From NCBI RefSeq assembly GCF_000725345.1, contig NZ_CP008852.1, positions 4,849,001 to 4,913,000 of the forward strand: a stretch of DNA of 64,000 nucleotides, written 5' to 3'. A program made the position numbers and the translations under genes. The stretch comes from Pelosinus sp. UFO1 (GTDB lineage Bacteria > Bacillota > Negativicutes > DSM-13327). The notes under the pieces were generated by a model. That model worked only from the letters and a program-made list of their open reading frames with translations. It was not told where the DNA came from and made no database searches. Shown in pieces: positions 55,546 through 63,766 of the stretch (position 1 is its first letter; every line of letters begins with the position of its first letter).

Positions 55546-55612
55546 CGTTGTCTCCCGAAAAATTGAAGAAGGGGTAAAGCGAATAGTAAAAGAAATTATA
55601 AGAAGTAAAAGG

Positions 55613-55684
55613 ATGTCATTGGGACGGAGTTGTCGACAATGCAATCGTTGAAGGTTAGTGTCAACAACCCCGTCCCCGTGACAC
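55613..55684 (+). repeat. REP-like hairpin repeat H2
   Basis: GTCATTGGGACGGAGTTGTC and TGTCAACAACCCCGTCCCCG arms with ACAATGCAATCGTTGAAGG between. Confidence 0.75.
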
Positions 55685-56937: not shown

Positions 56938-57010
56938 CGTCTGCCTTGTCTGGAAGAAACCTGCCCTTGCGGCGGGTTTTCCTGTTCTTATGAGAGAAGT
57001 ATCGAGGAAC

Positions 57011-57198
57011 GCTTACTCGCCTTTAAAATGTGCCGGACGTTTTTCTAAAAATGCAGTAATCGCTTCTTCATAATCATGGCTGTCATAAACCTTCTGTCGC
57101 ATCCCCTGTACTCGTTCAAAAGCGGATGGAGTAATAGAATATGCTTTTGATAAAACACGGAACTGTTCTTTAATTATCTCAATCGATAACATCGACCG
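57011..57198 (-). pseudogene. Truncated 3' copy of methylmalonyl-CoA decarboxylase gene
   Basis: This 188-base block is about 95% identical to the 3' end of the intact gene at 34977, including the stop codon, and reads in the same frame (FERVQGMRQKVYDSHDYEEA, ending HFKGE). It ends sharply at TCGACCG, two bases before an H2 repeat. No start or N-terminal two-thirds are present. Confidence 0.9.
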
Positions 57199-57200
57199 GA

Positions 57201-57266
57201 GATGTCACAGGGACGGGGTTGTTGACAATGGAATCGGTTGAAGGTAGTGTCAATAACCCCGTCCTC
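57201..57266 (+). repeat. REP-like hairpin repeat H2
   Basis: ATGTCACAGGGACGGGGTTG with a TGTTGACAATGGAATC centre and TGTCAATAACCCCGTCC right arm. It abuts the breakpoint of the scpB fragment. Confidence 0.75.
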
Positions 57267-57301
57267 TATCCCATACTGTCATTTAGAAAAGGGGGATAAA
57301 T

Positions 57302-57790
57302 TTGGAAGTAGTAAATGTAACTCATGAAAGTATAGATATTTTTTCAAAGGTTTTAAATGACTCTTCCGTATGGCTTAATTCTATAAATCAACCAATGTGG
57401 AAGTATGAAGATATAACAAGTGAAGAATTACTAAAGAAATATCGTGTCGAGGATATGAAATTATGCTATGAGAAAGGCAATTTAATTGGAGTATATATTT
57501 TGCAATGGTATGACCCTCTATTTTGGGCGAGCTTACAGGAGAATGAATCTGGTATACTACACAAGTTAGCTGTTTGTAGAGAAAGTGCAAAGAAGGGTTA
57601 TGGAAGCAAACTAATAGAATCTGCTGAATTAATATGCAAAGAGCGTAACATAAAATGGTTGAGGTTAAATTGCGGTACATTTAGAAACAGACTGCGAAAC
57701 TTTTACGAAAGCAATGGTTTTAAAATGGTAGACAGGGTCTTTATTGATAATAGAGACCAAATTAGATATGAAAAATTTCTAAATCTATAG
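57302..57790 (+). CDS. GNAT-family N-acetyltransferase
   Basis: A 162-residue acetyltransferase starting at TTG 57302, with GGGGGAT upstream. Acetyl-CoA binding motif LAVCRESAKKGYGSKLIESA and the closing RNFYESNGFKMVDR are typical. Substrate unknown. No partner gene next to it. Confidence 0.82.
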   Translation: MEVVNVTHESIDIFSKVLNDSSVWLNSINQPMWKYEDITSEELLKKYRVEDMKLCYEKGNLIGVYILQWYDPLFWASLQENESGILHKLAVCRESAKKGYGSKLIESAELICKERNIKWLRLNCGTFRNRLRNFYESNGFKMVDRVFIDNRDQIRYEKFLNL

Positions 57791-58147
57791 GAAATAGAAA
57801 TAAATTTGCTTTTAATAGTAGTTGGGTAGCTTTCTAATATTAACATTACAGATGGAAAATCCTACCTGTAATTCTTAAGGTTATATTTCAACATTATATT
57901 AAAACATATTACTAATGATATTATAGGCAAGACAGAACCACCGTCCCCATGTCTCATGCCAGATTTGAAGAAATTAAGATCAGATTCATGATTACATAGT
58001 CGTCAAAATGGAACGTAGTAGATGACAATTTGGCGACAGTTTTTTGACTTTAGTTGTGGTAAAATGATAATAAGTTAAAAAAGATTGAAAAGAGGCATCC
58101 TTCGGGGTGCTTTTTCTTATTCCTAAAATAATTATATCTTCCCAGTT
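57791..58147. other. Intergenic stretch
   Basis: No gene seen. It contains a REP-like fragment (GCAAGACAGAACCACCGTCC at about 57929) and, near its end, a short hairpin terminator (58093-58118). Confidence 0.4.
58093..58118 (+). terminator. TTCG-capped terminator
   Basis: GCATCC pairs with GGGTGC around the stable TTCG loop and runs into TTTTTCTTATT. The upstream transcript is not obvious. Confidence 0.6.
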
Positions 58148-58264
58148 TAAATATCATTATCACAAGAATGTATATCAGTGAAATCCGATATACAGGAAAC
58201 ACACAATTAATAATAAGAGTTCTTTAGTTATATTGGATTTACAATAATTAGAGGAGATGTTTAA
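58148..58264 (+). repeat. Dispersed leader repeat, copy D
   Basis: Shares AGTGAAATCCGATATACAGG, ACACACAATTAATAATAAG and TTTAGTTATATTGG-like pieces with copy C at 43008, also immediately upstream of a gene and with a similar AGGAGATGTTT ribosome-site context. Confidence 0.65.
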
Positions 58265-58846
58265 ATGTCTAGAACAGTAAATATCACAGAAGAAATCATT
58301 GTAGTATCAGAAGGTAAAAAGGATATTGGTAAGCTTGCATTTTTAGGCAATGACGGTAAGTTTGATCCGAGTGTTATTCCAATGCAAAGTGTAAGCATAT
58401 CTCAATGTGGAGTGAATATGTCTGCTGATTTATCGATACCTAATGATGCTTGGACAAATGTTACATGGGGGAAAAAGGAATATGATTCAGCGCAAATTTG
58501 TAATAGTGATCAAAAAGGCTTTACAGTAGACGCAGATGGACTGTATTTAATCGAGGCATCTGTTTGTTTTGAAATAAATGCAACAGGTGTAAGATATATT
58601 GGAATTACTAAAAATGGTTCTTTTATAGCAAACCAAGATCTACTAGCGGCACCTCAGCTATATTATAGTTACCTTCCCGTACAATATGTAGGTAGACTAA
58701 AAAAAGGTGATGTACTGCAAATTTACGTGTATCAATCATCAGGTGGGGCGCTTGCTGTTTTATCAGCTCCTCATGGTGGTATAGATCAAGCACACGCCGA
58801 TGGTGGTGGTCAACCTCGATTTACTTTAACTCAATTAAGTAATTAA
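58265..58846 (+). CDS. C1q/TNF-like beta-sandwich protein
   Basis: A 193-residue protein. The first about 45 residues may be an attachment arm (ITEEIIVVSEGKKDIGKLAF, FDPSVIPMQSV resembles phage-fibre linkers). The rest has the C1q-like jelly-roll pattern: DGLYLIEASVCFEINATG, ITKNGSFIANQDLL, YVGRLKKGDVLQIYVYQ, the fold also seen in BclA-type exosporium tips and phage fibre tips. No signal peptide. It shares its leader sequence with the tail-collar gene at 43188, so both are likely parts of the same kind of surface or fibre system. Confidence 0.75.
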   Translation: MSRTVNITEEIIVVSEGKKDIGKLAFLGNDGKFDPSVIPMQSVSISQCGVNMSADLSIPNDAWTNVTWGKKEYDSAQICNSDQKGFTVDADGLYLIEASVCFEINATGVRYIGITKNGSFIANQDLLAAPQLYYSYLPVQYVGRLKKGDVLQIYVYQSSGGALAVLSAPHGGIDQAHADGGGQPRFTLTQLSN

Positions 58847-58855
58847 GAGGAAATG

Positions 58856-58885
58856 GGAGTGAAGAGAAATCTTCACTCCTTTTGC
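58856..58885 (+). terminator. Terminator of C1q-like gene
   Basis: GGAGTGAAGA pairs perfectly with TCTTCACTCC around four bases, followed by TTTTGCTTT. Confidence 0.85.
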
Positions 58886-59020
58886 TTTGGGTAAGCTCCC
58901 TAAAGTGCTTTTACTTGCATAAAACACGGTTGACTAAACACGTCGAGAGGAGTATTTTTTTATGTCCCCCAATAAGATCGAGCAGTCATTTAGAGTTGCA
59001 ACTAAAGGTAACAGGGAGTA

Positions 59021-59092
59021 TGTCACAGGGACGGGGTTGTCGACAATGCAATCGGTTGAAGGTTAGTGTCAACAACCCCGTCCCCGTGGCAT
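59021..59092 (+). repeat. REP-like hairpin repeat H2
   Basis: GTCACAGGGACGGGGTTGTC arm and TGTCAACAACCCCGTCCCCG arm; the most regular member of the group. Confidence 0.8.
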
Positions 59093-59213
59093 TGGGTATA
59101 TAATCATAAAGATAAAGTAACTGTAAAAAGAATCCTTGGCGTAAAAGCTGAGGTTTTTTGAATTTTATGCCTAAAAAATTGAGATATTGGGAAGATGTTT
59201 TCATAAAACAATT

Positions 59214-59284
59214 GCAATATTTATATAAAAAATAATATTTTTTATATAAATATTATTGCTTTTTTATATTATTCTGTTATACTC
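59214..59284 (+). promoter_or_regulatory. Palindromic operator and promoter before RHH-like gene
   Basis: A near-perfect palindrome of about 40 bp (AATATTTATATAAAAAATA and its complement, 59216-59254) is followed by TTGCTT (about 59257) and TATACT (59279-59284), 16 bp apart. The site lies 33 bp before the RHH-like gene, fitting autoregulation. Confidence 0.5.
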
Positions 59285-59316
59285 AAAATATAAGAAATGT
59301 TTTCCAGGAGGTAGGC

Positions 59317-59733
59317 ATGAAACAGGATACTAAAAAAACAATTAGTGCAAGGGTAAATGAATCGATAACAGATATATTAAGTGAGCAGGATCTCCCAACA
59401 TCACAAATTGTTGAAGCTGGCATAATACATTTTTTAAAGCTTAAGGAAGAAGAAAAGATAGCATTTATAGCTGAAAATAGTGCGGAAGTTACAAATGAAA
59501 AAGATTTAGTAGTTATGCAAAAAGTGTGGCCAGATATTCTTAGAGATTATACAGGAACAACTAGGTTTAAAGATTTGATTGAAATTGCAAAACTAGCAAA
59601 GTCTGCTGGAGTAGGATTTCATGTAGTAAGAGAAAGTCTGAAATCAACAGGTATGTTAAGCATTGGTGCTGGTATTGTTGCGGGTTCAATGATGTCTCTA
59701 GCTAAAGTTTTAATGCAAAATAAAAAGAAATAA
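59317..59733 (+). CDS. RHH-like protein with hydrophobic C-terminus, 138 aa
   Basis: The ATG follows CAGGAGG. Residues 6-50 (TISARVNESITDILSEQDL, SQIVEAGIIHFLKLKEEEK) look like a ribbon-helix-helix DNA-binding unit: strand, then two helices. The middle is helical, and residues about 113-132 are a glycine/alanine-rich hydrophobic segment (MLSIGAGIVAGSMMSLAKVL) that could enter a membrane. A DNA-binding head with a membrane-active tail is unusual. It is followed after 16 nt by a small membrane protein gene. Family unknown. Confidence 0.65.
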   Translation: MKQDTKKTISARVNESITDILSEQDLPTSQIVEAGIIHFLKLKEEEKIAFIAENSAEVTNEKDLVVMQKVWPDILRDYTGTTRFKDLIEIAKLAKSAGVGFHVVRESLKSTGMLSIGAGIVAGSMMSLAKVLMQNKKK

Positions 59734-59749
59734 TAAGGGGGATTCTTAA

Positions 59750-59953
59750 ATGTACGAAAAAATTATTGAAAAAGGCCTTGAAACTGTAACTTCTGAAAAC
59801 ATTGTAAAACTATGTGCTGTCGTTGGTGTCGTTGCTTGTGTTGATCTTACTCTAAAGGCATCAGCTCCAATAATTAATGCTATCGCTAATAAAATTGATA
59901 ATCTTAAAGATATAAAACAGAACGCAGATGGGTCAACTATTTTAAACTTTTAA
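59750..59953 (+). CDS. Small membrane protein, partner of RHH-like gene
   Basis: A 67-residue protein with one hydrophobic segment (IVKLCAVVGVVACVDLTLKA, about 18-37), a short amphipathic N-terminus and a polar C-terminus. Ribosome site AAGGGGG. It follows the RHH-like gene by 16 nt and has its own terminator, so the two form a compact operon resembling a toxin-antitoxin or phage-exclusion pair in layout. No homology is recognised. Confidence 0.6.
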   Translation: MYEKIIEKGLETVTSENIVKLCAVVGVVACVDLTLKASAPIINAIANKIDNLKDIKQNADGSTILNF

Positions 59954-59956
59954 TAA

Positions 59957-59992
59957 AAAAACGACTAGAAATTAAATTTTAGTCGTTTTTTA
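59957..59992 (+). terminator. Terminator of the RHH/membrane pair
   Basis: AAAAACGACTA pairs with TAGTCGTTTTT across about 12 nt, then TTATT. Confidence 0.8.
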
Positions 59993-60124
59993 TTATCTTA
60001 CCTCAAACTCTAATATTGTTATTAAGTTAAATTGTTTATAAAAGTACACAAAGCTGTGCAGTTTTACTTTGCATGAGCTGAAAGATGAAAGAAGTTGCAA
60101 GACGGAACCACCGTCCCCATGTCT

Positions 60125-60330
60125 TCGGCTATAATGGGTTCCCCTTAATATTATAAAATTATCAACATTAAATTTTAACAGAGCCTATATTTTAAGGCGT
60201 AAACTAATTTCGGGAAGTAAGAGAACCGCCCCCTTGCTTCTGATCGATACGTGAAATTGAGCGAGCAACAGGAATATTGCGAGGTGTAATAGCAAAAGTG
60301 TGACAAATAGGAACGTCCCTGTTGTCACCC
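60125..60330 (+). repeat. 205-bp intergenic duplication, copy 2
   Basis: Near-identical to 48216-48420, including a RAYT 3' tail and an H3 repeat (GTGTGACAAATAGGAACGTC). The bases upstream (GCAAGACGGAACCACCGTCC) are another REP-like fragment. Confidence 0.8.
60244..60303 (+). pseudogene. RAYT 3' tail fragment
   Basis: Reads SIREIERATGILRGVIAKV and stop, followed immediately by an H3 repeat. Same kind of remnant as at 48336. Confidence 0.6.
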
Positions 60331-60334
60331 ATTG

Positions 60335-60490
60335 ATAAGAAACCTGAAACAGAACATTGCTCTGGTAAAATAATGCATATAATGTAAAAATATAGCAGGA
60401 TTTAGTATTTGTGAAAGAGAAGCTACCATGAATCTACCTTGTTAGTAGATTCATGGTAGCTTCTCTTAGATTTGCAATAGTGGTGAAATA
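60335..60490 (+). repeat. Hairpin repeat H1, perfect stem
   Basis: The most complete copy: TTGATAAGAAACCTGAAAC-like start, CTCTGGTAAAATAATGCATA with TATAATG, AGCAGGATTTAGTATTTGTG, then a hairpin at 60413-60468 with a perfect 22-bp stem (AGAAGCTACCATGAATC and complement), then the right flank TTAGATTTGCAATAGTGGTG. Confidence 0.8.
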
Positions 60491-60542
60491 TAACCTGTCT
60501 CTTTTAAAGGCACAAGTCACAAGGGGAAATGGAGGTATAAGC

Positions 60543-60719
60543 ATGAAAAATATTGATATGGTCGTTGAGGGAGATATTTTAACAATAAAGGTAGATTTAT
60601 CACAGCGTTTTGGCAAGTCAAGTAGTGGCAAATCAATTATTATTGCCAGCACAGAGGGGAATCAATCTATACCTAGTAATGATGATATAAAGATTGGATT
60701 AAATATCTATACGAAATAA
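60543..60719 (+). CDS. Small conserved-type protein, 58 aa
   Basis: ATG 60543 follows ATGGAGG; the frame runs further upstream through the H1 repeat but without a ribosome site. The product (MKNIDMVVEGDILTIKVDLS, then QRFGKSSSGKSIIIASTEGN) is a small beta-rich protein with a conserved-looking GKSSSGKSIIIASTEG centre of the type carried by phages and mobile elements. Role unknown. It lies at the head of the defence-like island. Confidence 0.7.
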   Translation: MKNIDMVVEGDILTIKVDLSQRFGKSSSGKSIIIASTEGNQSIPSNDDIKIGLNIYTK

Positions 60720-60802
60720 TAATGGGGATGGAGGTGGTGTCAGGCAATAAGGGAGTTGTTGAAAGAAGTTGCAAGACAAAACCTCCGTCCCCGCGTCTTG
60801 TG

Positions 60803-60880
60803 ACGAAAGAAGACTGGCTATCGATACATCAAATTGAGCGAGCAACAGGAATATCGCGATGTTTAATAGCAAAAGGGTTA
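60803..60880 (+). pseudogene. RAYT 3' tail fragment
   Basis: Reads KEDWLSIHQIERATGISRCL then IAKG, the same transposase tail as at 44601. It is in frame with the next gene, and the frame stays open across the junction, but the next gene has its own start at 60938. A diverged H3 repeat (AAAGAACGACCCTTTTGTCC) follows. Confidence 0.6.
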
Positions 60881-60937
60881 CGAAAAAGAACGACCCTTTT
60901 GTCCTCCGAAAGTTATTTCTTGACAGGGGGCGTTTTT

Positions 60938-61621
60938 ATGGGGAATCAGGAAATTATTGAACGAATTAAAAATGAATTTGCAAATTTTAAAGCAAGCGGA
61001 AATATGAGTGTTTCAGTGGATTCGGTTCTTACCTATCTTGACGTACTTGAAAAAGATATATCACATAATGTTCAAGATAAAGAAACACAACGTTTTTTAA
61101 CACAACTAGCACACGAAAGAAAAATAGAACTTTGCAAAGTAGATAATCAAGTCAGGATCGCTAATGTGGATCGCTTGGAAGAATGCCAAAGGCTTATGCT
61201 TAAATCGGCAATTGAGATAGGTCAGAACGCATTAAAGTATGTAATGCTCATTAATGGTGGCGCAGGTGTTGCGATGCTTGCTTTTGCAGGAAATATTTTA
61301 TCAAAAGGCTCTGCAATTAATTGCTTTTTAATCTGGAGCCTTACATCCTTTGCGGTAGGCGTATTGGCTGCTGCCGTTTCTAGTGGTGCAGGATATTTTA
61401 GTCAATGCTACTATTCTTGTTCGTATGAAAAGCAAAAAAATAAGTTGGTTGACATTATAAATACAGGAAAGAATGATGGTAAAGCTACATCAGATTTTGA
61501 TAGTGGTTCCGATGAAAAGAACGGAAATTGGTGGCGTAATGCGGCTATAGGCGCGGCAGTTTTAGGATATGTACTTTTCTTGTTTGGTGTTATTACTGCA
61601 TATAACGGCTTAAAAATCTGA
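60938..61621 (+). CDS. Membrane protein with cytoplasmic helical head, 227 aa
   Basis: Start at ATG 60938 with CAGGGGG seven nt upstream. Residues 1-105 are helical and charged (ETQRFLTQLAHERKIELCKV), followed by two hydrophobic spans (about 107-125 and 130-155, YVMLINGGAGVAMLAFAGNI and LIWSLTSFAVGVLAAAVSSG), a polar stretch of about 50 residues and a final span (about 203-222). No family recognised. It neighbours an abortive-infection gene; a membrane effector role is possible but unproven. Confidence 0.65.
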   Translation: MGNQEIIERIKNEFANFKASGNMSVSVDSVLTYLDVLEKDISHNVQDKETQRFLTQLAHERKIELCKVDNQVRIANVDRLEECQRLMLKSAIEIGQNALKYVMLINGGAGVAMLAFAGNILSKGSAINCFLIWSLTSFAVGVLAAAVSSGAGYFSQCYYSCSYEKQKNKLVDIINTGKNDGKATSDFDSGSDEKNGNWWRNAAIGAAVLGYVLFLFGVITAYNGLKI

Positions 61622-61665
61622 TAAATCCTACAATAAGATGCGAGTTAATAAAGGATGGTGTGTTT

Positions 61666-61731
61666 ATGGGAGATAATAAATTCAGCGTTCTTTATTTGTG
61701 CGTTCAAGAGCCAAATATAATTACTTTTTAA
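61666..61731 (+). CDS. Short frame, probably truncated gene (21 aa)
   Basis: ATG 61666 follows AAAGGATGG. The 21 codons (MGDNKFSVLYLCVQEPNIIT) end in TAA. The good start and abrupt end suggest the beginning of a deleted gene rather than a functional peptide. Confidence 0.25.
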   Translation: MGDNKFSVLYLCVQEPNIITF

Positions 61732-61885
61732 AAAGCATTGCTTTTATATGACGAAATAAATTTTATTGACAGACCGTCGATACAAATTAAGGTGTCAATC
61801 ACCCCGTGCCCTTGACACCAATAAGACGCATCTAACGTCCCCGCGTCTTATAGTCAGGGTGGAATAAGTTTTAGGAGGACAAAAT
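61732..61885. repeat. Degenerate REP-like sequence
   Basis: ACAGACCGTCGATACAAATT, GGTGTCAATCACCCCGTGCC and CTTGACACC resemble a decayed H2 element; AACGTCCCCGCGTCTT follows. Confidence 0.45.
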
Positions 61886-62803
61886 ATGCCGGATAAAAAA
61901 ACAAAATCTCCCTACGAGTTATTAAGAAGTAAAGCAATTCTTTCAATTCTTGATGGAGACACACAATTCGGCGAGATCGACGATGTAAAAATATCAATGC
62001 CATATTTGAGTGGGCCTATAATTGTAGATATTTCACAACAGTTTGGGTTATCAGCTACATATGGATGGAGTGGTGGAGCACAAAGCAGATGGGCTTACTT
62101 GGATGACCTTATTGTTCATTGTATTGCTAACAATAGGGGTGGTGACCTATTGTCATATCTGTTTTTCAAACAACAATTTGAAGAAAAGCTAAGAGGGAAA
62201 TCCCCTGAGCAGATAGATGATATTTACAACCATATTACTAACACTATAATAGAGCAGATTAATGGTGCCCTTTATTTTGGTGGTAATAAGCTTGTCATCA
62301 GCAATAAAAAGTTTTTCATTGTACCTATAAATGGTACCGTAGAGATTACAGCGCCTGCAGTAAAAAACATCGACCGAGATTATATAAAAGACATATCTGA
62401 TAGAGCCATGCAAGATGTCGTAAGTAAAAATTATGATAGTGCAATTACAAAATCCAGAACATTGTTGGAAGAAGTATTTTGCTATGTCATTGAAAAGAAA
62501 AATGAAACACCATCAGGCTCTGGAGATATTGGAAAATTGTATAAACAAGTTAAGGATTTATACAATATGCATACAGATAAAGATATTGATAGAAGAATTA
62601 ATTCCCTGCTCTCTGGTTTGGAAAAAATTGTTTTATCTATTGCGGAAATGCGTAATTCAAACAGTGATGCCCATGGTGTAGGAAATCGAAGAATAAACAT
62701 TGCCGAGCATCATGCAAGACTTCTTGTAAACTCGGCAATGACAATGGCTGAATTTGTTCTATCCATTGGAAGCAAAACCCAACAAAATGATGCATTAAGC
62801 TAG
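61886..62803 (+). CDS. Abortive-infection family protein
   Basis: A 305-residue soluble protein. The C-terminal part, SLLSGLEKIVLSIAEMRNSN, SDAHGVGNRR and EHHARLLVNSAMTMAEFVL, matches the Abi C-terminal domain found in phage-exclusion proteins (AbiJ-like and related), with the conserved R-N...DAHG motif. The N-terminal about 150 residues are specific (with SGPIIVDISQQFGLSATYGW) and may sense or act. RBS AGGAGG. It probably stops phage growth by harming the infected cell. It lies next to two phage-repressor-like genes. Confidence 0.85.
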   Translation: MPDKKTKSPYELLRSKAILSILDGDTQFGEIDDVKISMPYLSGPIIVDISQQFGLSATYGWSGGAQSRWAYLDDLIVHCIANNRGGDLLSYLFFKQQFEEKLRGKSPEQIDDIYNHITNTIIEQINGALYFGGNKLVISNKKFFIVPINGTVEITAPAVKNIDRDYIKDISDRAMQDVVSKNYDSAITKSRTLLEEVFCYVIEKKNETPSGSGDIGKLYKQVKDLYNMHTDKDIDRRINSLLSGLEKIVLSIAEMRNSNSDAHGVGNRRINIAEHHARLLVNSAMTMAEFVLSIGSKTQQNDALS

Positions 62804-62877
62804 TCTTTTAATGTACATAATCTTTACCTAACCATTGATACCCTCTTTCCTATTTACAGAAAAATTTTCGAATTATA

Positions 62878-62923
62878 AAAGAAGCAGGAAAATCGATTCA
62901 CGATTCTTCCTGCTTCTTTTTTT
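62878..62923. terminator. Bidirectional terminator
   Basis: GAAGCAGGAA and TTCCTGCTTC form the outer stem, AATCG/CGATT the inner one; T-runs on both strands (A-rich before, T8 after). It ends the Abi gene and overlaps the end of the convergent repressor gene. Confidence 0.8.
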
Positions 62924-63278
62924 GTTTTATATCCCAAAAGATAATGTCAAGCGATGCTTTAATTTTGGCTTTATCTTCTTTGGTCAGCAACATACCGTCT
63001 AGTGAGACTTCTGGCTGGTCAAGAAATTTAATTAAGTCCTTATGTGTCGTCGTTTCGTTAGTTGAAGAAAGAAGCGTAATGTTATCACGGCCTATTAAAT
63101 AATCAGTAGTTGTATTATAAAAATCTGCAAGACGCCGAAGTGTATCAGTATCTATATCACGTCTGTTTGTTTCATATAGAGCAATTCGTGAACGAGAAAT
63201 ATTTAGTAATTTTGCCGCTTCTTCTTGTGTTAAATCTTTTGCATTTCTCAGTTGTGATAAGCGCTCTCCTAGTGACAA
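62898..63278 (-). CDS. XRE-family repressor
   Basis: A 126-residue regulator. TTG 63278 is chosen as start (AGAGAGGTGAT at proper distance); a GTG three codons upstream overlaps that site. N-terminal HTH (about 3-58): LGERLSQLRNAKDLTQEEAA, LLNISRSRIALYETNRR. The C-terminal about 60 residues may dimerise. It is divergent from a second XRE gene, with palindromic operators between, like a phage or mobile-element switch. Confidence 0.85.
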   Translation of the reverse strand: MSLGERLSQLRNAKDLTQEEAAKLLNISRSRIALYETNRRDIDTDTLRRLADFYNTTTDYLIGRDNITLLSSTNETTTHKDLIKFLDQPEVSLDGMLLTKEDKAKIKASLDIIFWDIKQKKKQEES

Positions 63279-63334
63279 ATAAATCACCTCTCTAAGAAAT
63301 ATTATATGTTACAAGAAGAAACAATTGTATATTT

Positions 63335-63413
63335 GTTTCAGAAAGTAATAATTATTATTGACAGTTTCAAAATGAAACTTTATAATGGAGTTGCAAATGT
63401 TTCAAAGTGAAAT
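63335..63413 (+). promoter_or_regulatory. Promoter with GTTTCA-TGAAAC operators
   Basis: TTGACA (63358-63363) and TATAAT (63381-63386) are exactly 17 bp apart, a full consensus. The spacer is filled by the palindrome GTTTCAAAATGAAAC (63364-63378). A second site GTTTCAAAGTGAAAT lies at 63399-63413 and a half-site GTTTCA at 63335. Another such sequence (TTTCAAAATGAAAC) lies within the downstream gene at about 63626. A repressor bound here would block the plus-strand promoter. Confidence 0.85.
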
Positions 63414-63430
63414 AATTGGGGGGCGTGCAT

Positions 63431-63766
63431 ATGCGCAAATCATTAGTTATGCTAAGAAAAAGTAAAGGCATTACTCAAGCGGAAGTTGCTGAATCTATTG
63501 GTATTTCTCGGAGTTTTTATGCATTAATAGAATCAGGTTTCCGGTGTCCTACTTATCGAATAGCAAAGCAATTAGCAATAATATTTGATCATGAAGTAGA
63601 AGAACTTTTTTTTGACATTGATGATTTCAAAATGAAACAAATTGATTATGAATTATTAAAATCAAAGTCAATTAGGGAGGTGAAGAATTGTTCTCTAACG
63701 CTCAATCATGCCAAGAAAGAAAAGCAACAATTAGAAGTCCTTCCAGTTGAAATCGAAAAGAGATAA
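63431..63766 (+). CDS. XRE-family regulator, Cro/ArpU-like
   Basis: A 111-residue protein; ATG 63431 follows GGGGGGCG. HTH at about 3-55 (KSLVMLRKSKGITQAEVAES, SFYALIESGFRCPTYRIA), then LAIIFDHEVEELFF typical for small phage-type XRE regulators, and a basic tail of about 45 residues. It is driven by the consensus promoter with GTTTCA/TGAAAC operators, and likely competes with or is repressed by the divergent XRE protein. Confidence 0.85.
   Translation: MRKSLVMLRKSKGITQAEVAESIGISRSFYALIESGFRCPTYRIAKQLAIIFDHEVEELFFDIDDFKMKQIDYELLKSKSIREVKNCSLTLNHAKKEKQQLEVLPVEIEKR

Follow-up and report, generated by a model that had tools for sequence, protein, structure and literature searches.

Type II toxin-antitoxin modules of the RelBE/ParDE type place a ribbon-helix-helix (RHH) antitoxin gene first and the toxin gene second, with a short gap between them and an operator at the module's own promoter, and the gene pair described here (A and B) shares this arrangement. 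The accessible part of PMC11980606 describes RelB as an RHH antitoxin; it calls ToxM-ToxR, which resembles A-B in that an upstream RHH/HTH antitoxin gene is co-transcribed with a membrane toxin gene, the first possible membrane-associated type II toxin-antitoxin complex. As far as this source goes, membrane-associated type II pairs are rare. In SpoIISA-SpoIISB/C of Bacillus, according to the accessible part of its description, a membrane toxin is neutralized by a small partner, as is proposed below for A and B. Phage morons and superinfection-exclusion cargo have their own terminator, lie between late genes and are absent from relatives, which is also true of the phage copies of the pair. The A-B pair was found in a 64,000-nucleotide stretch of Pelosinus sp. 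UFO1 DNA (the window), and we compared it with these systems by means of its operon signals, predicted structure, relatives and genomic settings.

Operon anatomy and the two proteins

Gene A (59317-59733, + strand) encodes 138 residues with an RHH head and a hydrophobic C-terminal helix, and gene B (59750-59953, + strand) encodes 67 residues with one hydrophobic span, a candidate membrane effector. As the first-pass annotation had stated, the two short genes lie 16 nt apart, and both open reading frames have good Shine-Dalgarno sequences (AGGAGG at 59306-59311 for A and AAGGGGG at 59735-59741 for B, + strand). The palindrome it had placed 5' of the pair was confirmed as an AT-rich, strandless probable operator at 59203-59267, the 32-nt arms of which (59203-59234 and 59236-59267) are 81% complementary; the ungapped stem score of its best core (59216-59254) is 19 against a shuffle mean of 7.3, and none of 300 dinucleotide shuffles equaled it. 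The intrinsic terminator 3' of the pair (59956-59991, + strand) was likewise recovered, by a terminator scan and an inverted-repeat search, as a 15-pair stem followed by a T-run, with 18-nt repeat arms (89%); two terminator-like sites were found in the scanned stretch against 0.3 ± 0.6 expected. The promoter claimed in the same annotation did not hold up in this way: a sigma-70 scan returned 5 promoters where 5.4 were expected, i.e. not above chance, and the possible extended -10 element just 3' of the palindrome (TGn-TATACT, TGTTATACT, 59275-59283, + strand) is a reading by eye. The overall layout is that of a type II toxin-antitoxin operon, a tight gene pair with the predicted DNA-binding antitoxin first and a putative operator palindrome upstream. 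Based on the Shine-Dalgarno sites, the spacing, the palindrome and the terminator, we conclude that the A-B unit is real.

The head of A together with a third helix (residues 1-56; 59317-59484, + strand) was delimited from an AlphaFold2 model and comparison with solved structures. Modeled alone, the head reached a pLDDT of 89.1, with helices at residues 15-23, 28-41 and 44-55 after an extended stretch, and the same three helices, the third at 44-53, appeared in a whole-A model built on an 18-sequence alignment. The strand followed by helices of about 10 and 14 residues is the order of an RHH fold. When entries drawn from Foldseek's top 21 chains were compared with the head by VIA-align, all 11 solved entries listed were, as far as known, RHH proteins (CopASO, two of AtaR, TacA3, Reg576, three of CopG, Arc and two of PutA; Z = 2.8-3.9). 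Low Z scores are expected, since the compared domain has just 40-50 residues. Foldseek itself returned nothing at E ≤ 0.001 for the whole A model or for the head, and whole-A structural matches with Z up to 4.5, which lay mostly in the helical C-terminal half, were rejected as common helical arrangements.

Sequence comparisons of the head were less informative. In hhalign against 15 RHH_1 proteins the register was right, with a score no better than that of shuffles; A had no match above the curated cut-off to the RHH families of Pfam (RHH_1, RelB and others); and a PDB sequence search with two profiles gave no usable match. When 10 members were scanned, the matches that came closest to an RHH assignment were DUF6364 (E 0.034), presumably an RHH family, and RHH_3 (E 0.14). 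The RHH call therefore comes from structure and not from sequence, and on the predicted models the head very probably has an RHH fold. The RHH-like head named in the first-pass annotation is thus borne out, and the structure prediction that was to reveal a missing fold returned strand-helix-helix.

The hydrophobic segments of both window proteins are just moderately hydrophobic. The tail of A has a possible membrane segment at residues 114-132 (59656-59712, + strand), with a hydropathy maximum of 1.61 over 19 residues, a value that 217 of 2000 shuffled versions of this tail attain as well; AlphaFold2 places a helix at residues 120-136 at low pLDDT. The tail proposed earlier is therefore present as a low-confidence helix but is weaker than had been claimed. 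B does have 67 residues and one hydrophobic span (residues 17-35; 59798-59854, + strand; hydropathy 1.98), as annotated, but 237 of 2000 shuffles reach the same value.

Neither A nor B matched a fitting family in Pfam, PHROGs, NCBIfam or PADLOC, and the earlier statement that neither protein is recognized holds for these four libraries. B had no Pfam match at E up to 1, including to SpoIISA, a family for which we assume Pfam holds a model; its best PHROGs match (E 0.017) was to a PHROG with no assigned function. In the same four libraries no recognized toxin fold was found in B, with no ParE/RelE match, and no exclusion-protein family for either protein. Sub-threshold matches to archaeal RNA polymerase B, MerD and PHROGs with no assigned function were rejected as chance. 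No match was obtained by tblastn with A against plasmids and phages or with two A relatives against phages. No relatives of B were detected in 59 other genomes, and searches of viral contigs for B relatives recovered, apart from the loci used as queries, four matches of 14 residues.

Relatives of A and the terminase-portal slot

Among the 380 genomes searched in this class, 12 contain relatives of A, counting the genome of A itself, and none of these is one of the seven other genomes of the genus. This count comes from 15 matches (13 genomes) after removal of one, L013, dropped as chance (E 7e-4) because it overlaps ordinary genes in other frames; L013 and two weak matches, L035 and L036 (E 2e-4 and 7e-4), are excluded from all counts of relatives. 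The head occurs in two settings. In 11 Negativicutes loci (L002, L004-L012 and L014) it belongs to single proteins of about 285-330 residues, and all three long proteins scanned (L004, L009 and L012) contained TPR repeats (TPR_12, E 5e-13 to 4e-17). This layout follows the plan of the HTH-TPR peptide receptors of the RRNPP group, except that the HTH is replaced by an RHH head. Since the head is also found in these RHH-TPR proteins outside toxin-like pairs, it is no antitoxin-specific domain. In the other setting, an RHH head is joined to a hydrophobic tail, as in the window and at four further loci (L024, L025, L027 and L028), all four of which lie in phage or prophage DNA. Two loci fit neither setting: L003, a 105-residue head protein followed by a 250-residue gene product with hydrophobic segments and a zinc ribbon, and L015, a 205-residue head protein followed by a 41-residue hydrophobic ORF.

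In the viral contigs L024 and L025, the A-like gene is accompanied by a small single-span gene (111 and 70 residues, respectively). The pair is flanked by the genes for the terminase large subunit and the portal, as PHROGs confirmed, and a terminator hairpin follows it in both contigs. In the bacterial contig L027, the A-like gene, followed by a 49-residue single-span ORF, lies beyond an endolysin gene and a gene for a small membrane protein assigned to the PHROG 'bacteriocin production or immunity'. In the prophage L028, of which the viral contig L032 holds an identical copy, it lies beside two serine recombinase genes that come after holin and endolysin genes, and hydropathy of the neighboring products revealed no membrane partner. 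A small hydrophobic gene thus lies 3' of the A-like gene in four of the five loci of this setting, window included, with L028 as the exception, and a small single-span neighbor is present in three of the four others. The B proteins of the four pairs are 9-24% identical, without a convincing alignment or detectable sequence homology, and a profile scan with the B protein of L024 found no toxin family. Joint conservation of A and B is therefore supported by the recurrent small hydrophobic neighbor but not by sequence comparison of the B proteins, nor by the orphan at L028.

Compared with composition shuffles, tail hydropathy is clear in L025 (6 of 2000), L027 (0 of 2000) and L028 (2 of 2000), modest in L024 (110 of 2000) and poor in the window (217 of 2000); the membrane tail of the window protein is the weakest among the five. 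The spans of the B proteins were equaled by 92 to 473 of 2000 shuffles in the four pairs, and that of the L015 neighbor by 59 of 2000, none of them beyond doubt. Upstream of the head genes, GTATTAC/GTAATAC sites, a motif chosen post hoc, were observed 8 times against 0.69 expected in 18 upstream regions. They were present in four of these, L024 (1262-1342), L025 (3853-3952), L004 and L005, with a spacing of 20-22 bp in L024, L025 and L004, and absent at the window. A shared operator was rejected, given that the window has no such motif and that an unbiased 7-mer count was no higher than in shuffles.

The terminase-portal slot was surveyed by tblastn with the L025 portal protein, which matched 2098 phage records, and the region was fetched for 16 of the 25 matches listed. 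The junction was empty (10-23 nt) in nine (H3, H5, H6, H9, H11, H14, H19, H20 and H21) and held cargo in seven (H1, H2, H4, H10, H13, H23 and H25). In two of these phages related to L025, H2 and H25, the slot is occupied by a gene for a RelB antitoxin and, after it, one for a ParE-type toxin (E 1e-12 and 2e-16; 9e-11 and 8e-11). The other five cargoes are not confirmed toxin-antitoxin pairs. H4 and H10, from gut phages, carry PAPS-reductase-like genes (L059 1725-2501 and L060 1638-2336), the former also matching SspD of the Ssp defense system (E 4e-27); H13 has two small ORFs without known family; and H23 has an HTH-IrrE protein behind two small ORFs, a cargo that we presume to be HigBA-like. 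H1 (L056 1857-2351, Erysipelothrix phage phi1605) carries a gene annotated as aminoglycoside nucleotidyltransferase, from which the slot may also hold resistance-like genes. The phage copies in L024 and L025, as distinct from the window copy, have the attributes of moron cargo: terminators, late-gene flanks and a slot that is empty in 9 of 16 relatives, with promoters read by eye. A toxin-antitoxin-like role is argued for most strongly by position: in related phages, one and the same slot accommodates RHH-antitoxin/toxin pairs as well as the RHH-tail/membrane pair.

Chromosomal site of the window copy

The window pair lies in a site (56986-63672, no strand) that was delimited by flank comparison with a congener, G006. 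The left flank is 97.5% identical up to 56985 and the right flank 81% identical from 63673, with different genes in between; the site is therefore variable, and in this sibling it is defense-rich. Between the shared flanks, G006 encodes among others a protein with a TIR domain (TIR_2, E 2e-18; PDC-S66) and one of the PDC-S21/DUF4917 type. Common to both sites are a piece of an XRE gene (62861-63042, 87%) and short repeats. In two other congeners, the right flank alone is common to the window within the compared stretch. The Abi gene reported beside the pair was identified as AbiJ (61886-62803, + strand; PADLOC AbiJ, E 1.2e-87; Pfam Abi_C, E 1.1e-20), about 2 kb downstream. As to the neighboring phage-type repressors of the first-pass annotation, the HTH genes near the pair are of XRE type, and no phage structural genes were seen by eye in the last 9 kb of the window and the following 18 kb. 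The window copy is accordingly placed in a chromosomal island and not in an intact prophage; a prophage reading was rejected, with ordinary chromosomal genes, again read by eye, on both sides.

Several other features of this region were recorded. The G006 site (L082, G006:C5:236500-250000) holds a 447-residue fusion of a ParA-like ATPase with TIR (AAA_31 and TIR_2), together with the PDC-S21/DUF4917 protein and a DUF6680 protein. Short REP-like repeats lie between genes at 55609-55683, 57202-57267, 59020-59093, 60088-60125, 60331-60490 and 60715-60804; several of them have arms of the GGGACGGGG type, and they are 84-95% identical to copies in the G006 site. Directly before AbiJ, 60722-61621 encodes a 299-residue protein that has no family above cut-off and whose C-terminal half contains hydrophobic segments. 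The 193-residue product of 58265-58846 weakly resembles the C-terminal domain of BclA, with an E value of 0.001 that falls short of the cut-off.

Possible roles and comparison with known systems

We tentatively favor the reading, to which we would give somewhat less than an even chance, that A-B is a self-contained, mobile cargo cassette of toxin-antitoxin type, membrane-acting and autoregulated. It builds on the operon anatomy, the palindrome, the predicted RHH-like fold of the head and the recurrence of head-and-tail proteins as phage or prophage cargo, and it is preferred because of the antitoxin-first order, the RHH head and the RelB/ParE-type company in the slot. A would be antitoxin and autorepressor, its dimeric RHH head binding the palindrome and holding down its own promoter, while its C-terminal helix would reach the membrane and pair with B; B would be a small membrane effector that disturbs the membrane once A is lost or titrated, e.g. 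when another phage infects. What we infer here is that A binds the operator, that the proteins insert into the membrane (weakest for the copy in the window), that A and B make contact, that B is toxic and that the pair acts against phages. Against a toxin stand the B proteins with neither homology nor toxin family, the orphan L028 and the reuse of the head in TPR proteins. The likeness to toxin-antitoxin or phage-exclusion pairs suggested in the first-pass annotation is thus upheld by position (the phage cargo slot, RelB/ParE-type pairs in 2 of 16 relatives, AbiJ), but not by the B proteins, which share no detectable homology. An extended version, which we consider unlikely, would make A-B a phage and defense-island toxin-antitoxin family with both partners in the membrane: the RHH head of A would be cytoplasmic, its tail would neutralize a tiny toxin helix-to-helix, and membrane disturbance caused by infection would be read directly at the operator.

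The phage cargo positions, the nearby AbiJ and the defense-rich sibling site support a toxin-antitoxin or an exclusion role alike. A superinfection-exclusion or lysogenic-conversion pair would need no toxin; both membrane proteins would block phage entry or DNA injection, and the RHH head would keep expression low and steady. Cargo position with its own terminator, the prophage-end positions of L027 and L028 and the membrane segments of the phage copies are consistent with this, but neither protein matches an exclusion family in the four libraries, such cargo of known type as that slot contains belongs to other classes, and the window copy is outside a prophage; we rate it as somewhat unlikely. 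That A is a membrane-tethered transcription regulator or sensor controlling other host or phage genes, with B as its membrane partner or signal protein, appears distinctly unlikely: the cassettes are isolated and have their own terminators, even though Negativicutes proteins combine the head with TPR as a second domain and its structural neighbors include PutA, an RHH protein able to bind either DNA or the membrane.

RHH proteins also serve as centromere binders, and the sites that precede L024, L025 and L004 at a spacing of 20-22 bp would suit a DNA-membrane tether or partition cassette in which an RHH protein binds repeated upstream sites and its tail anchors the DNA to the membrane. However, the sites are few, their motif was chosen post hoc, the window, itself chromosomal, lacks them, and no ParA-like gene was noticed beside the pair; we regard such a cassette as very improbable. 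Equally improbable is that the two genes are neighbors by chance, A being a soluble autorepressor of the usual kind and B a small ORF with no relation to it. Shuffles reach the hydropathy of the window tail and B span, and B relatives were not found in the 59 other genomes or the viral contigs, but the two genes share a terminator and tight spacing, B has a good Shine-Dalgarno sequence, and the order of an A-like gene and then a small membrane gene is repeated in three phage or prophage loci.

If the favored toxin-antitoxin reading is true, an unannotated family would be added to phage and defense-island cargo. In the literature searched, mostly outside subscription journals, we recognized no description of an RHH antitoxin with a membrane tail. 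Where RelBE/ParDE antitoxins have a soluble segment that wraps the toxin, A has a hydrophobic tail, and B differs from their toxins as a small single-span protein without a ParE/RelE domain. Unlike morons, the window copy is on the chromosome near AbiJ, and exclusion by A-B is putative. The DNA-binding domain of PutA, a structural neighbor of the A head, resembles it as an RHH in a membrane-associating protein; PutA, however, is a large peripheral-membrane enzyme, whereas A has 138 residues and no enzyme domain. The nearest published ideas found, as far as their accessible accounts go, are SpoIISA and ToxM-ToxR. In the accessible part of PMC4803016, the SpoIISA antitoxins are small and cytosolic, with one promoter per gene, unlike A-B, and are described there without an RHH head, unlike A. 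ToxM combines a cytoplasmic BECR-fold toxin domain, fused to a transmembrane domain, with a periplasmic domain in the accessible part of PMC11980606, whereas B has 67 residues and matches neither the toxin nor the periplasmic domain. Compared with ToxM-ToxR as described there, the RHH partner A itself carries a membrane-like tail. If the proposal is true, an antitoxin that both binds DNA and has a membrane tail of its own would let a single small protein couple transcription to what happens at the membrane.
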